Origin: Candidatus Kapaibacterium sp.
GTDB taxonomy: Bacteria; Bacteroidota; Ignavibacteria; Kapaibacteriales; WFXC01
Assembly (NCBI GenBank): GCA_015490805.1
Contig: WFXC01000045.1
Span: 1-36,589 of the forward strand
Direction of reading: 5' to 3'
Length of the DNA: 36,589 nucleotides
The notes under the pieces are model-generated. The model did not search any database and had not been told where the DNA came from. It was given only the letters and a program-made list of their open reading frames with translations. Positions 3,400 to 36,589 of this stretch are shown here, piece after piece. Both the position numbers and the translations under genes were made by a program. Every line of letters begins with the position of its first letter. Position 1 is the stretch's first letter.

Positions 3400-3440
3400 C
3401 AAAAAATTCCGGACACAGGCAAGACCGTCGAAGAGGGTTC

Positions 3441-3538
3441 GAGAGCGCACATTTCAGCGTGCATTCACCGGGAACGCACCCCCTTAGGGTGCATTTTCTT
3501 TGCCGACGAAAGTCGGCGCTCCCAGTCGGCGCTCCCGG
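3441..3538. repeat. Composite palindromic repeat, inverted orientation, with extra partial copies
   Basis: Here the repeat family lies in reverse orientation. A partial copy (GCGCACATTTCAGCGTGC) comes first. A full unit follows at about 3468-3525: a GTGC/GCAC hairpin, then the GCCGAC/GTCGGC hairpin, ending in GCGCTCCCAG. A short duplicate of the end (TCGGCGCTCCCGG) follows. It fills most of the gap between acnA (ends 3595) and the next minus-strand gene (starts 3349). Confidence 0.85.
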
Positions 3539-9024: not shown

Positions 9025-9408
9025 CGATCCACCCTTTCCGTTGAACCACACTTGCTTGCGCCCCTTTGCAAACTACAAAATTGCAACTTTTCCAGCAGAC
9101 GATGGGCAGAATCGTGCCGGCGCTGCGTATCGGAAGCAGGACAGGGAAACTGTGGACTGAGAGCGCCGACACTGGGAGCGCCGACTTTCGTCGGCAATGT
9201 TTATGCACACTGAAGTGTGCGCTCCCAGTAAACAGGAAAGGCCGACTTTCGTCGGCAAGAGAATGCACGCTAAAGCGTGCGCTCCCAGGTATGCTGAAAT
9301 GTGCATTTCTGGCGCACGCTCCGGCTGCACCTTGCTACGGCGCTTTTCGGGGAGAGCGACTGCATACTGAATAGTGCACAGTTCAGGATGCCGATAGCGT
9401 TCGGCGCA
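9025..9408. other. Intergenic region between ispG and icd, mostly repeats
   Basis: This 384-base gap has no credible gene. Its central part (9161-9330) is the composite repeat cluster. The 130 bases next to icd should hold its promoter, but only imperfect TAnnTTTG matches are seen there. Confidence 0.7.
9161..9330. repeat. Cluster of two full composite palindromic repeats plus fragments
   Basis: Unit 1 (about 9172-9228) starts CTGGGAGCGCC, continues with the GCCGACTTTCGTCGGC hairpin, then TGCACACTGAAGTGTGC, and ends GCTCCCAG. Unit 2 (about 9241-9288) repeats the two hairpins as GCCGACTTTCGTCGGC and TGCACGCTAAAGCGTGC, but lacks the left outer arm. Base changes in the second hairpin are compensated (A-T to G-C), which suggests the fold is what is kept. 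Degenerate pieces flank both sides. Confidence 0.9.
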
Positions 9409-25845: not shown

Positions 25846-25939
25846 AAGCTCCCGACTGGGCGCGCCGACTTCAGTCGGCAAAAAGTGCGTCCTAAAGGGT
25901 GCGTTCCCAGTAAACGCACACTAAAGTGTGCGCTCCCGG
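25846..25939. repeat. Composite palindromic repeat between a response regulator and a sigma factor
   Basis: Full unit at about 25856-25910: CTGGGCGCGCC, the GCCGACTTCAGTCGGC hairpin, a degenerate second hairpin (GTGCGTCCTAAAGGGTGC) and GTTCCCAG. A further second-hairpin copy (GCACACTAAAGTGTGC) follows, ending GCTCCCGG. It sits between two convergent genes, where it could help stop both transcripts. Confidence 0.87.
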
Positions 25940-27438: not shown

Positions 27439-28632
27439 CTAAGCCCCAGAAGCAGATCGATAGACAGTGCTACGCCATCGGCGAGAGGTTGTCCCCCCCC
27501 CCTCTCTCTCTTTTTCTTCTACTATTGGAATCCAAACTCTCACCGTTGTACCTCCATTAGGAGTATCTCCCACCTCCAGCCGTCCACGATGAAAATCTAA
27601 CAACAACAAGGCAATAGCTAATCCTAATCCCAACCCTTGCTGCTCTCGCTCCTTGCGCCCAAACTGGACAAATGCTCCAATTTGCTCCCACTGCTCAACC
27701 GTCATTCCTTCCCCGTGATCCCGAATGACAACTCCGTAGTATTCTCGGTCTACTACATCGGTGACTTCAACTATGCTTCCAGGTGACGAAAACTTAAACG
27801 CGTTATCCAAAATCTCAACGAGAATCTTTTGCCAATGTTGGTAACCAATAGCAATGGGAACAGTATGTGACAAGCTCAATTGTAAATCCGATTCTCGCTC
27901 ATACCGCCGGGCAACCATCACTGCCGCATTGACGACTACCTCCTGAGCACAGGAAGTTACCTCTTGGCGCATCTGCTGCTGCAAAGCTTCATCCTGTTCA
28001 ACTGCTCGCAACTGAGCATATGTCAGGAGATTTTCCATCAAACGCTCTAGGCGCTGGGAGGCGTGTAAAATCTCAGTGCCAATTTCCTGAATTTCATCAC
28101 ACTTGAACACTACTTCCTGTCCCGACACTTGTGTTATCATCTTTGCATATCCCTTGATTCCGTTGATCGCTGTGCGGAATTCGTGGGGCAAAGCATAAAA
28201 GACAACGTCCCGGATATATTCCAGCTTTTCTTCGACCTGCCGTTGAAACTGTCGATGGCGCTCCAAAAGTCGATTCACTGCTCTGACCAGCTCATAATTT
28301 TTGAACGGTTTAGTAATGTAATCATCCGCTCCCATTTCCATCCCACGGCGAATATCTTCCCGCTCACTATGGGCTGATAGTAAGATCACAGGCACTGTGG
28401 ACAATGTTTGGGTCTGTCGAATCGCTTTTAACAACTCCAGCCCCGATCGTTTTGGCATCGCGACATCCGCAATAATAAGATCGGGACGCTCCGATAACGC
28501 CTTCTGAAGTCCTTCTTCTCCGTCCTGAGCTTCAATAACTTCGTAACCTTCCAATCGGAGTAGCAAAGAGACATTCATTCGCACCACCGGCAAATCATCG
28601 ACGATTAAAATTTTCGGCTTTGGTGTTTCCAT
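27439..28632 (-). CDS. REC-histidine kinase, downstream copy, with G10 tract near its end
   Basis: A 397-residue soluble protein with a receiver domain first (Asp56 in DLIIADVAMP, Lys108) and then a histidine kinase: dimerisation helix with His150 in ALPHEFRTAINGIKGY, N box EILDNAFKFSS, G1 box DHGEGMT and G2 box GLGLGLAIALLL. The H box lacks the usual proline after HEFRT. Its ATG follows the stop codon of the upstream kinase at 28633 directly, and the two proteins are close copies, so this is a tandem duplication read as one operon. After the last conserved strand (VRVWIPIVEEK) the coding strand has (GA)4 and G10 and then a tail unlike its paralogue. That tail changes if the tract gains or loses one base. 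Confidence 0.9.
   Translation of the reverse strand: METPKPKILIVDDLPVVRMNVSLLLRLEGYEVIEAQDGEEGLQKALSERPDLIIADVAMPKRSGLELLKAIRQTQTLSTVPVILLSAHSEREDIRRGMEMGADDYITKPFKNYELVRAVNRLLERHRQFQRQVEEKLEYIRDVVFYALPHEFRTAINGIKGYAKMITQVSGQEVVFKCDEIQEIGTEILHASQRLERLMENLLTYAQLRAVEQDEALQQQMRQEVTSCAQEVVVNAAVMVARRYERESDLQLSLSHTVPIAIGYQHWQKILVEILDNAFKFSSPGSIVEVTDVVDREYYGVVIRDHGEGMTVEQWEQIGAFVQFGRKEREQQGLGLGLAIALLLLDFHRGRLEVGDTPNGGTTVRVWIPIVEEKEREGGGTTSRRWRSTVYRSASGA
27493..27502. repeat. C10 homopolymer (G10 on the coding strand) near the end of a kinase gene
   Basis: Ten consecutive C on the plus strand, followed by (TC)4 and T5. It is inside the coding frame of the kinase at 27439-28632. Such a run is prone to slippage during replication and also to sequencing error. 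Confidence 0.9.
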
Positions 28633-29778
28633 TTAAGCGTTGCTTTTCTCTCCGTCCAACATCGGAGCTATCGGCATTGCAATTCGCACTGTCGTTCCAC
28701 CATTAGGAGTATCCGAAAAAGCTAACACCCCGTGGTGAAATTCCATCAGCAGCAAAGCAATTGCCAGCCCCAATCCCATTCCCTGTTGTTCATACTGCTG
28801 CCGTCCAAATTGGACATAGGGAGCTATCTGCTCTCGTTGCTCCGGCGTCATTCCTCGCCCCTGATCCTGTACGATAACCACATAGTCATTGTCCTCCACA
28901 GCATCGCGAATGCGCAACCGACTGCCAGGCGGAGAAAACTTGAATGCATTGTCGACCACTTCATAGAGGATCTTGTGCCAGTGATGATACTCGATTGCAA
29001 CTGGAACATCGTGATTTAACACCAACTCCAGATCCTTTTCCCGCCGATACTGCAATGCCAGGGACAAAGCAACATCACCTACGACCTCTCGCGCCGGATC
29101 AGTTACCTTCTGCCGCATTTGATACAGCACTTCCTCATCCTCAGCAACCGATTGCAACTGAGCATAGATAATAAAATTTTCGACCAATCGATGCAATCGG
29201 GATGCGGCTGTACGAATCGCTACTCCGATATCCCGAAGCTCCTCATAGGACATCGGTTCACCATTGCCCAAGCCCTGAATCAAGAGCTCTGTATACCCTT
29301 GGATTCCATTGATAGCTGTGCGAAACTCGTGGGGCAAGGCGTAAAACATCACATCCCGCAACTGCTGAAGCTTCGCCTCAATGCTCTTACGAACCAATTC
29401 TGATCGCTTGAGCAATCGCCGAACCGCTCCCAGCAATTCCTCGCTGGTAAAGGGCTTCGGCAGATAATCATCGGCTCCATATTCCATCCCCCGTCGTATA
29501 TCCTTCCGCTCCGTTTGTGCCGATAACAGAATAAAGGGGACCGTTGACAATGATTCCGACTTCCGAATGCGTCCTAATACTTCTAACCCTGACAACTTTG
29601 GGAGAAGAATGTCACAAATGATCAGATCTGGTTGCTCTGCGAATGCTTTGTGCACCGCTTCTTCCCCATTAACTGCCTCGATCACCTCCCATCCTTCTAA
29701 CTTCAGCAACGTCGCAATGTGATGTCGAACCATTGGTGAATCTTCGGCAACCAAGATTCTCACAGTTGTCTGAGACAT
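28633..29778 (-). CDS. REC-histidine kinase, upstream copy
   Basis: The 381-residue paralogue of the kinase downstream of it, with matching positions throughout: phosphoacceptor Asp56 (DLIICDILLP), Lys108 (LPKPF), His150 in ALPHEFRTAING, N box EVVDNAFKFSP, G1 box DQGRGMT and G2 box GMGLGLAIALLL. There is no membrane segment or sensory domain, so the receiver must be the input. The protein ends PIAPMLDGEKSNA shortly after the last kinase strand, without the odd tail seen in the copy downstream. It is the first gene of the pair, probably transcribed from the TAACTTTG element about 35 bases upstream. Signals may come from a kinase elsewhere, and its target could be the CheY-like protein at 25379; neither is shown. 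Confidence 0.92.
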   Translation of the reverse strand: MSQTTVRILVAEDSPMVRHHIATLLKLEGWEVIEAVNGEEAVHKAFAEQPDLIICDILLPKLSGLEVLGRIRKSESLSTVPFILLSAQTERKDIRRGMEYGADDYLPKPFTSEELLGAVRRLLKRSELVRKSIEAKLQQLRDVMFYALPHEFRTAINGIQGYTELLIQGLGNGEPMSYEELRDIGVAIRTAASRLHRLVENFIIYAQLQSVAEDEEVLYQMRQKVTDPAREVVGDVALSLALQYRREKDLELVLNHDVPVAIEYHHWHKILYEVVDNAFKFSPPGSRLRIRDAVEDNDYVVIVQDQGRGMTPEQREQIAPYVQFGRQQYEQQGMGLGLAIALLLMEFHHGVLAFSDTPNGGTTVRIAMPIAPMLDGEKSNA

Positions 29779-32669: not shown

Positions 32670-32734
32670 ACGCCTTCCAGCGCAACTATTCGCCCGCCGG
32701 ACAGACAAATGGAATGGCACTACCACAATTGCTA

Positions 32735-32818
32735 GGAGTGCCGATTTCAGTCGGCAAAAAGCTGGGAGCGCCGACTTTCAGTCGGCATCTTTGCACGTCT
32801 AAGGGCGTTCGTTTCCAG
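32735..32818. repeat. Composite palindromic repeats, degenerate copies
   Basis: A first GGAGTGCCGATTTCAGTCGGC fragment is followed by CTGGGAGCGCCGACTTTCAGTCGGC, and then by a decayed second hairpin (TGCACGTCTAAGGGCGTTCG) ending in TTTCCAG. This copy looks old compared with the others. Confidence 0.8.
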
Positions 32819-32825
32819 CGCAATC

Positions 32826-32880
32826 TGTAGGGGCGAAGCGGTGCTTCGCCCACGGGCGACCCATCAAGTCGCCTCTACAG
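32826..32880. repeat. Second repeat family: GTAGGGGCGA outer palindrome with two inner hairpins
   Basis: Outer arms CTGTAGGGGCGA and TCGCCTCTACAG pair imperfectly. Inside them are the hairpins GGGCGAAG/CTTCGCCC and GGGCGAC/GTCGCC. A second GTAGGGC fragment follows at 32889. I recall similar GTAGGGGCGA repeats as widespread in other bacterial phyla, including Chloroflexi and Cyanobacteria. Confidence 0.75.
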
Positions 32881-32913
32881 GTGGAGCTGTAGGGCTGATT
32901 GAATGCGCCATAC

Positions 32914-33054
32914 CGGGAGCGCCGACTTCAGTCGGCAAAAATGCACACTGAAGTGTGCGCTCCCAGTAAATGCACCCTAAAGAGAGCGGTCCCTGTAAAT
33001 GCACGCTGAAGCGTGCGCTCCCAGTAGCTGGAGCGCCGACTTCCATCGGCAACA
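32914..33054. repeat. Composite palindromic repeat cluster next to the rRNA operon
   Basis: A full unit at about 32914-32970 (CCGGGAGCGCC, hairpin GCCGACTTCAGTCGGC, hairpin TGCACACTGAAGTGTGC, GCTCCCAG) is followed by two more second-hairpin copies, one decayed (32971-32994) and one intact (GCACGCTGAAGCGTGC). A first-hairpin copy (GCCGACTTCCATCGGC) closes the cluster. Spacers of GTAAATGCA between copies suggest growth by tandem duplication. Confidence 0.88.
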
Positions 33055-33174: not shown

Positions 33175-33294
<120 letters not shown>

Positions 33295-33311
33295 AAAAAA
33301 TTTTATGGGAT

Positions 33312-33377
33312 GGTGGTAAGGCACGCGGTGAGCAGGCAAGGGGCAGAGAGATCCGCTACAAGAGCCATCCAGCCGAA

Positions 33378-33385
<8 letters not shown>
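33312..33385. repeat. 3' arm of a long 23S processing stem
   Basis: This flank of the 23S gene is complementary to 36271-36352 on the other side. The inner 53 to 55 bases pair with few mismatches (including AGCAGGCAAG at 33331-33340 and CCGAAGCGGCAAG at 33373-33385). An outer block, GGTGGTAAGGCAC, pairs with 36340-36352. Confidence 0.8.
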
Positions 33386-36270
<2,885 letters not shown>

Positions 36271-36277
<7 letters not shown>

Positions 36278-36352
36278 CTTCGGCGGATGACTCTTGCGCA
36301 GATCTCCCTGCCGCTTGCCTGCTCTGTAAGGCACCCGCTGTGCCTTACCACC
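36271..36352. repeat. 5' arm of a long 23S processing stem
   Basis: Complementary partner of 33312-33385. The innermost 13 bases (36271-36283) pair perfectly with 33373-33385 and include helix 1 of the mature 23S. Confidence 0.8.
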
Positions 36353-36440
36353 CCAATTTTCAAAGAGCTTTCACACTTGTGCTTTTCCGTTTCGGAATGC
36401 AGTTTAGGGGGCAGGGGTCGAGGCAGGAGATGGTCCATAG
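36278..36440 (-). other. 16S-23S internal transcribed spacer without tRNA genes
   Basis: Only about 160 bases separate the two genes. I looked for tRNA-Ile and tRNA-Ala and found neither. Much of the spacer is the 5' arm of the 23S processing stem (to 36352), including a local 9-bp hairpin at 36326-36348 (GTAAGGCAC and GTGCCTTAC around a 5-base loop). Confidence 0.85.
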
Positions 36441-36589
36441 AAAGGAGGTGATCCAGCCGCACGTTCCCGTACGGCTACCTTGTTACGACTTAGCCCCAGT
36501 CGCCGGGTGTGCTGTGGGCGCCTCATCGGCGACTTCGAGCACCCCCGACTCCCATGGCTTGACGGGCGGTGTGTACAGAGCCCGGGAAC
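36441..36589 (-). rRNA. rrs: 16S ribosomal RNA, 3' end only
   Basis: The last 149 bases of the gene are present; the rest lies beyond the window. On the minus strand it contains GTACACACCGCCCGTCAAGC, AAGTCGTAACAAGGTA and the terminal GGATCACCTCCTTT with an intact anti-Shine-Dalgarno sequence. This fits the purine-rich ribosome sites seen before several genes here. Confidence 0.97.

Follow-up and report, generated by a model that had tools for sequence, protein, structure and literature searches.

REPs are thought to be copied by a single-strand transposase, and terminator and stabiliser roles are known for them. Under the refined definition, a REP begins with the 5' tetranucleotide GT[A/G]G (PMC3686654; PMC6006769) and has its palindrome directly downstream of that tag (PMC3686654); the anatomy of BIMEs and REPINs has likewise been described (PMC3116915; PMC2817692; PMC3733652). 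The repeat considered here lies in a stretch of 36,589 nucleotides (the window) from the genome of a Candidatus Kapaibacterium sp. (G000; 2.67 Mb in 48 contigs), a genus represented in the comparisons also by G001 and G002. It is best explained, at a probability of roughly 0.8, as a GGAG-tagged REP/BIME population, copied, we infer, in the RAYT manner, with the cognate enzyme likely of the RGYLPH class.

The repeating unit is 24 nt long, with a head, CTGGGAGC, followed by a 7-bp hairpin of the form GCNNNCT-TY-AGNNNGC, and it occurs genome-wide in G000 and also in G002. At one mismatch or fewer, the full 24-mer CTGGGAGCGCNNNCTTYAGNNNGC has 378 copies in G000 and 322 in G001, versus 0 for the reversed control in each, and GCCGACTTNNGTCGGC has 140+155 matches in G000, again versus 0 for its reversed control. 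The first-pass annotation had suspected a REP/BIME-like element with many genomic copies, and these counts bear it out well beyond the few copies of the window. A looser count gives about 700 units in G000, a rough estimate taken from approximately 1.21 Mb of the 2.67 Mb in stretches picked partly because they contain matches. The commonest stems in an 814-kb sample were GCCGACT (42), GCACACT (24), GCCGGCT (22), GCACGCT (21), and GCACCCT (14), each matched by its perfect complement on the opposite arm, and they fall into two classes, A with CGR (CGA, CGG) and B with ACN (ACA, ACG, ACC). Among 395 genomes sampled across the phylum, this genus alone carries the unit as a repeat family, and no Rfam family matched over the window repeats. 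Single units lie further from the consensus than clustered ones (3.8 vs. 1.8); single REPIN relics are likewise more decayed (PMC3116915).

Clusters of one shared plan had been reported for the window. There are four of them, or five when the last is counted as two (3439-3525, 9157-9288, 25856-25939, and 32732-32786 plus 32913-33050), and the units at 9172-9195 and 9205-9228 are exactly as first described. The units are as follows, with the head given before the hairpin.

3439-3462, plus strand: class B unit, degenerate, TCGAGAGC then GCACATTTCAGCGTGC
3468-3492, plus strand: class B unit with a 1-nt insertion, CCGGGAAC then GCACCCCCTTAGGGTGC, read directly
3502-3525, minus strand: class A unit, CTGGGAGC then GCCGACTTTCGTCGGC
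9157-9170, plus strand: truncated unit, head CTGAGAGC and GCCGAC only
9172-9195, plus strand: class A unit, CTGGGAGC then GCCGACTTTCGTCGGC
9205-9228, minus strand: class B unit, CTGGGAGC then GCACACTTCAGTGTGC, inverted partner of 9172-9195, fold also computed
9233-9256, plus strand: class A unit with degenerate head CAGGAAAG
9265-9288, minus strand: class B unit, CTGGGAGC then GCACGCTTTAGCGTGC
25856-25879, plus strand: class A unit, CTGGGCGC then GCCGACTTCAGTCGGC
25887-25910, minus strand: class B unit, CTGGGAAC then GCACCCTTTAGGACGC
25916-25939, minus strand: class B unit, CCGGGAGC then GCACACTTTAGTGTGC, in 29-nt tandem with the unit at 25887-25910
32732-32755, plus strand: class A unit, CTAGGAGT then GCCGATTTCAGTCGGC
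32762-32786, plus strand: class A unit, CTGGGAGC then GCCGACTTTCAGTCGGC, loop 1 nt longer, read directly
32913-32936, plus strand: class A unit, CCGGGAGC then GCCGACTTCAGTCGGC
32943-32966, minus strand: class B unit, CTGGGAGC then GCACACTTCAGTGTGC
32972-32995, minus strand: class B unit, degenerate
33001-33024, minus strand: class B unit, CTGGGAGC then GCACGCTTCAGCGTGC
33027-33050, plus strand: class A unit, degenerate

Elsewhere in the window, 27439-29778 holds two adjoining paralogous response-regulator/histidine-kinase hybrid genes (75% identity over the best DNA stretch), and 33176-36589 holds an rRNA operon on the minus strand, in whose 16S-23S spacer no tRNA gene was found.

What is conserved is the pairing in each hairpin and, in the head, the sequence itself. 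Across 323 units, standard base pairs are formed at stem positions 3, 4, and 5 in 90, 91, and 86% of cases; with shuffled partners the figures are 47, 46, and 59%, and the remaining pairs are nearly invariant. Across 202 distinct doublets both hairpins outscored all 500 shuffles, by paired cells as well as by double-change cells, which upholds the earlier claim that stem changes are compensated between copies; these counts are inflated by copies of common descent, the main stem types being sub-families rather than independent events. In the head, GGGAG is the most strongly kept part, with the A present in 314 of 323 units and the preceding Gs in 295-314, and the GTAG tag was absent among the 323 units.

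The same annotation had suggested that the clusters can fold as a three-way junction and that this fold, rather than the letters, seems to be kept. The first statement is true of the 59 nt at 9171-9229, which fold strongly as described (DNA -19.7 kcal/mol, z -6.0; RNA -35.2 kcal/mol, z -7.6; 0 of 200 shuffles as good), but not of every copy: the doublet at 9231-9289, with its degenerate head, formed no outer stem in the fold prediction, and 32912-32969 prefers one long hairpin. The second statement does not extend to the whole fold. Outer arms of the 202 doublets pair at 0.895, versus 0.893 when shuffled (112 of 500 shuffles reach this value), with 24 double-change cells versus 18.6 expected (reached by 36 of 500), and in a separate permutation test on 166 doublets partner heads paired no better than re-dealt ones (0.896 vs. 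0.898). Because partner heads vary independently, the stem of the three-way junction is not conserved as a helix; the outer arms pair because both inverted units share one head, and not from selection on the fold. A three-way-junction RNA or cruciform selected over its whole 59 nt, for which the folding of 9171-9229 speaks, should covary in all three helices, of which the outer shows no covariation, and tandem and head-to-head arrangements of units are common besides. That explanation is largely refuted and now scarcely credible; the large fold is mostly a by-product of two hairpin units placed side by side with their heads outward.

What is strictly kept between neighboring units is a rule of class and strand. 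Among 322 adjacent pairs in the three genomes, a tally that takes in only units typable on both arms, 214 join A and B on opposite strands and 107 join two units of one class on one strand. The sole exception places A and B on the same strand, and no pair has a single class on opposite strands. A looser tally that uses the 5' arm alone gives more exceptions, and all but one disappear once both arms agree in class. Tail-to-tail neighbors are separated by 6-10 nt, head-to-head neighbors by 4 or about 17-20 nt, and tandem neighbors by 5 nt. The units stand in inverted or alternating orientation in doublets and clusters, as expected of BIMEs and REPINs. Class A and class B units pair heads outward across the 6-10-nt spacer as a hetero-REPIN or BIME, and intergenic clusters would grow from such doublets. 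One possible reason for the hetero-only rule is that inverted doublets of a single class, which would form near-perfect 24-bp palindromes, are lost, as has been suggested for other REPs (PMC3733652). With 0 same-class inverted doublets, the near-absolute rule offers a clean data set on heterodimer preference.

Called genes contain only 20 of 340 units though 83% of the sample is coding, the calls coming from a home-made gene caller that places 18 clusters in called ORFs, several of them probably spurious. High copy number and extragenic placement, the general marks of a REP, are both present. Convergent gene pairs hold more clusters between them than expected (23 of 62; odds ratio 4.7, p = 9e-6), and a T-rich stretch follows the B hairpins (mean of 3.05 T in 7 nt). 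Both would suit units that act chiefly as two-way transcription terminators or stabilise mRNA 3' ends, are selected for that role, and are spread by recombination. Such an account is nonetheless very unlikely: divergent genes flank 9 of the 62 clusters, the polarity between co-directional genes (19 A-sense, 9 B-sense; p = 0.09) shows no significant bias and leans against B as the terminator, turnover between sister species is fast, and same-headed REPs sit at RAYT genes in other genomes (see below).

Clusters do turn over between species. Unit numbers usually differ at the orthologous sites of G001 and G002 (about 91.5% identity), and 32 of 54 synteny breaks relative to the sister species fall on clusters, only 1 of which has unchanged content. 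At the site of the 9157-9288 cluster, G001 has eight to ten units versus four in the window, between flanks of 92-97% identity. A/B polarity is the same at 16 of 16 comparable orthologous sites, and no clean empty site, new insertion, or insertion site with a target duplication was found when G000 was compared with the sister species. Slippage or recombination would expand and contract clusters in this manner while preserving the A/B strand rule. It should be noted that further repeat families are interleaved with clusters in spacers of the genus (e.g., L228, L036, and L101), of the types CCCTCTCCC...GGGAGAGGG and GGACAACC...GGACAAGCC.

Consistent with the first reading, no transposase is present in the window. 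The accompanying suggestion of a RAYT elsewhere in the genome is supported, with a correction as to its repeats. The PF01797 profile finds nothing in the genus, and a reading of the genome as free of RAYTs was set aside because NF047646 detects divergent RAYT-like genes: G000 and G002 have two each, and G001 has one that is short and matches weakly. The G000 genes (C44:112480-112992 and C38:1210-1530; NF047646 at E 1e-10 to 1e-9) carry HUH (NHIH), WQRNYYE, and Y..ENP motifs. However, they are not flanked by GGAG repeats: no GGAG unit of either class was found within about 1.1-1.5 kb on either side of the RAYT-like genes of the genus. A partly degenerate GTAGGGGCGACC-type palindrome is read through inside 3 of the 5 genes (G000:C38, G002:C23, and G002:C109), and the C44 gene of G000 contains a related GGGGCGACG / GGGGCGACGCATGCGTCGCCCCTAC palindrome in its reading frame; internal REPs have been reported for RAYT subclass 2.4 (PMC6006769). 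From these internal palindromes, the cognate repeat of the genus RAYT-like genes is probably a GTAG family, which is also present in the window at 32825-32880. There it forms another REP-like element, CTGTAGGGGCGAAGCGG...GTCGCCTCTACAG, which has two inner hairpins between GTAG tags; GTAGGGGCG occurs 46 times in the 1.21-Mb sample. Movement of GGAG units in trans by the two G000 genes, the sole such genes found there, would draw on their motifs and profile matches and on the tolerance of some RAYTs for tag changes (PMC8266576), but the lack of GGAG units within that 1.1-1.5 kb and the palindromes pointing to the GTAG family make it unlikely. The RAYT-like genes of the genus also abut restriction-modification genes, namely hsdS in L304 (G000:C44, ~112.4-113.0 kb), hsdM in L301 (G000:C38, ~1.1-1.9 kb) and, by sequence likeness, in L305 (G002:C23), and a candidate methylase without family-search support in L303 (G001:C80).

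Same-headed REPs do stand beside RAYT genes in other genomes, of a type unlike those of the genus and marked by an RGYLPH motif (the RGYLPH class; alignment A1). In G041 (Planctomycetota), a gene that passes NF047646 is bracketed by five exact-head REPs and one degenerate REP on one side and three REPs on the other. In G005, from the same order as the window's genome, 8 of the 9 copies of CTGGGAGCRCCGNC lie within 600 bp of a RAYT (E 5e-85). They belong to two oppositely oriented stem classes; being in frame within coding sequence and confined to a single side of the RAYT, they are neither extragenic nor a full bracket. RAYTs at three loci in G042 are flanked by TTGGGAGC, ACCGGAGC, and GTCGGACC repeats, and one RAYT locus in G043 has the same hairpin plan but a GTAG tag. 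A REPtron, a RAYT gene flanked by REPs, is thus found with both sides occupied in G041, with one in G005, and not in the genus, and a search of G000-G002 with alignment A1 found no full-length RGYLPH-class RAYT. Many clusters assemble well within contigs, so REP-flanked RAYT genes should assemble too; the RGYLPH-class enzyme appears to have been lost from the genus or left unassembled. A rule that all RGYLPH RAYTs use GGAG was rejected, as elsewhere in the GTDB class most members of the wider RAYT class have GTAG repeats or lack any that can be recognised.

As separate observations, repeats that follow the unit plan but have different stem triplets (AGG, AGA, GGA, CGG) occur in G041, G042, G043, and G045 (L122, L155, L167, and L131), genomes of Planctomycetota, Limisphaerales, and two further bacteria. 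RAYT/Y1 transposase domains also lie in frame inside long DNA methyltransferase frames at L309 (G005:C1:142080-142667), L316, L318, L319, L320, L322, and L326, the host frame being DUF1156 in G005 and an Eco57I-type restriction-modification methylase at the six other loci. Their position is alike, about residues 580-680 of the frame examined and ahead of the Eco57I domain, and the G005 REPs too are read through in frame within the methyltransferase.

The same-headed REPs beside RGYLPH RAYTs, in Planctomycetota and in the same order, support RAYT-type mobility of the GGAG population, as judged from gene neighborhoods. The basic unit would then be a 24-nt REP, CTGGGAGC plus a TY-loop hairpin, whose GGGAG head and hairpin a RAYT-type HUH tyrosine transposase would read in single-stranded DNA, cutting near the unit and pasting copies elsewhere; the likely cognate enzyme would be the RGYLPH-class RAYT, which in relatives adjoins same-headed REPs and in the genus appears lost or unassembled. 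Against this stand the GGGAG tag, the want of a cognate RAYT in the genus and of a clean new insertion between species, the GTAG or unrecognisable repeats of most of the wider RAYT class, and the one-sided, in-frame placement of the REPs in G005. A wider proposition is possible, if rather doubtful: that several phyla (Kapabacteria, Planctomycetota, and others) have a class of GGAG-tagged REPs with a RAYT sub-class of its own, and that in this genus several hundred hetero-doublets persist and turn over in three species without that transposase, via host recombination or a heterologous RAYT. A GGAG-tagged family with matching-tag RAYTs in other phyla would widen the REP definition, usually GT[A/G]G; natural tag variants could test substrate choice by domesticated transposases; and the view that REPs decay after the loss of their RAYT could be tested on a large population that lacks its enzyme.

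Compared with known systems, the repeat resembles BIMEs (the Y/Z REP mosaics of E. coli) and REPINs in its short intergenic REPs of alternating orientation, its head-outward doublets of two stem types, its higher clusters, and its more decayed singles. It differs from these GTAG elements in its GGGAG tag, the lack of a bulge, a hetero-only rule that is near absolute, and a cognate RAYT not found in the genome. It shares with the GTAG REP superfamily (Di Nocera 2013; PMC3733652) 6-9-bp stems, 2-nt TY loops, compensatory stem sub-families, HH, TT, and HT dimers, heterodimers, and a preference for convergent and unidirectional spacers. These likenesses would invite its placement in an ordinary, already catalogued GTAG-type family, which is quite unlikely because GGGAG is conserved and GTAG absent, the second tag base being G and not T, and because no mention of GGAG as a REP tag was found in the literature searched. 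The palindrome directly downstream of the tag, with its 7-bp covarying stem and 2-nt TY loop, conforms to the REP definition (PMC3686654), whereas the GGAG of the head departs from GT[A/G]G; the repeat is therefore a GGAG-tagged variant that works like a REP/BIME and not a member of the GTAG superfamily. The RGYLPH-class REPtrons of G005, G041, and G042 share the head CTGGGAGC or close variants and the same hairpin plan and, in G005, two stem classes in opposite orientation; they differ in holding the transposase, in their stem triplets, and, in G005, in having only about 9 copies.
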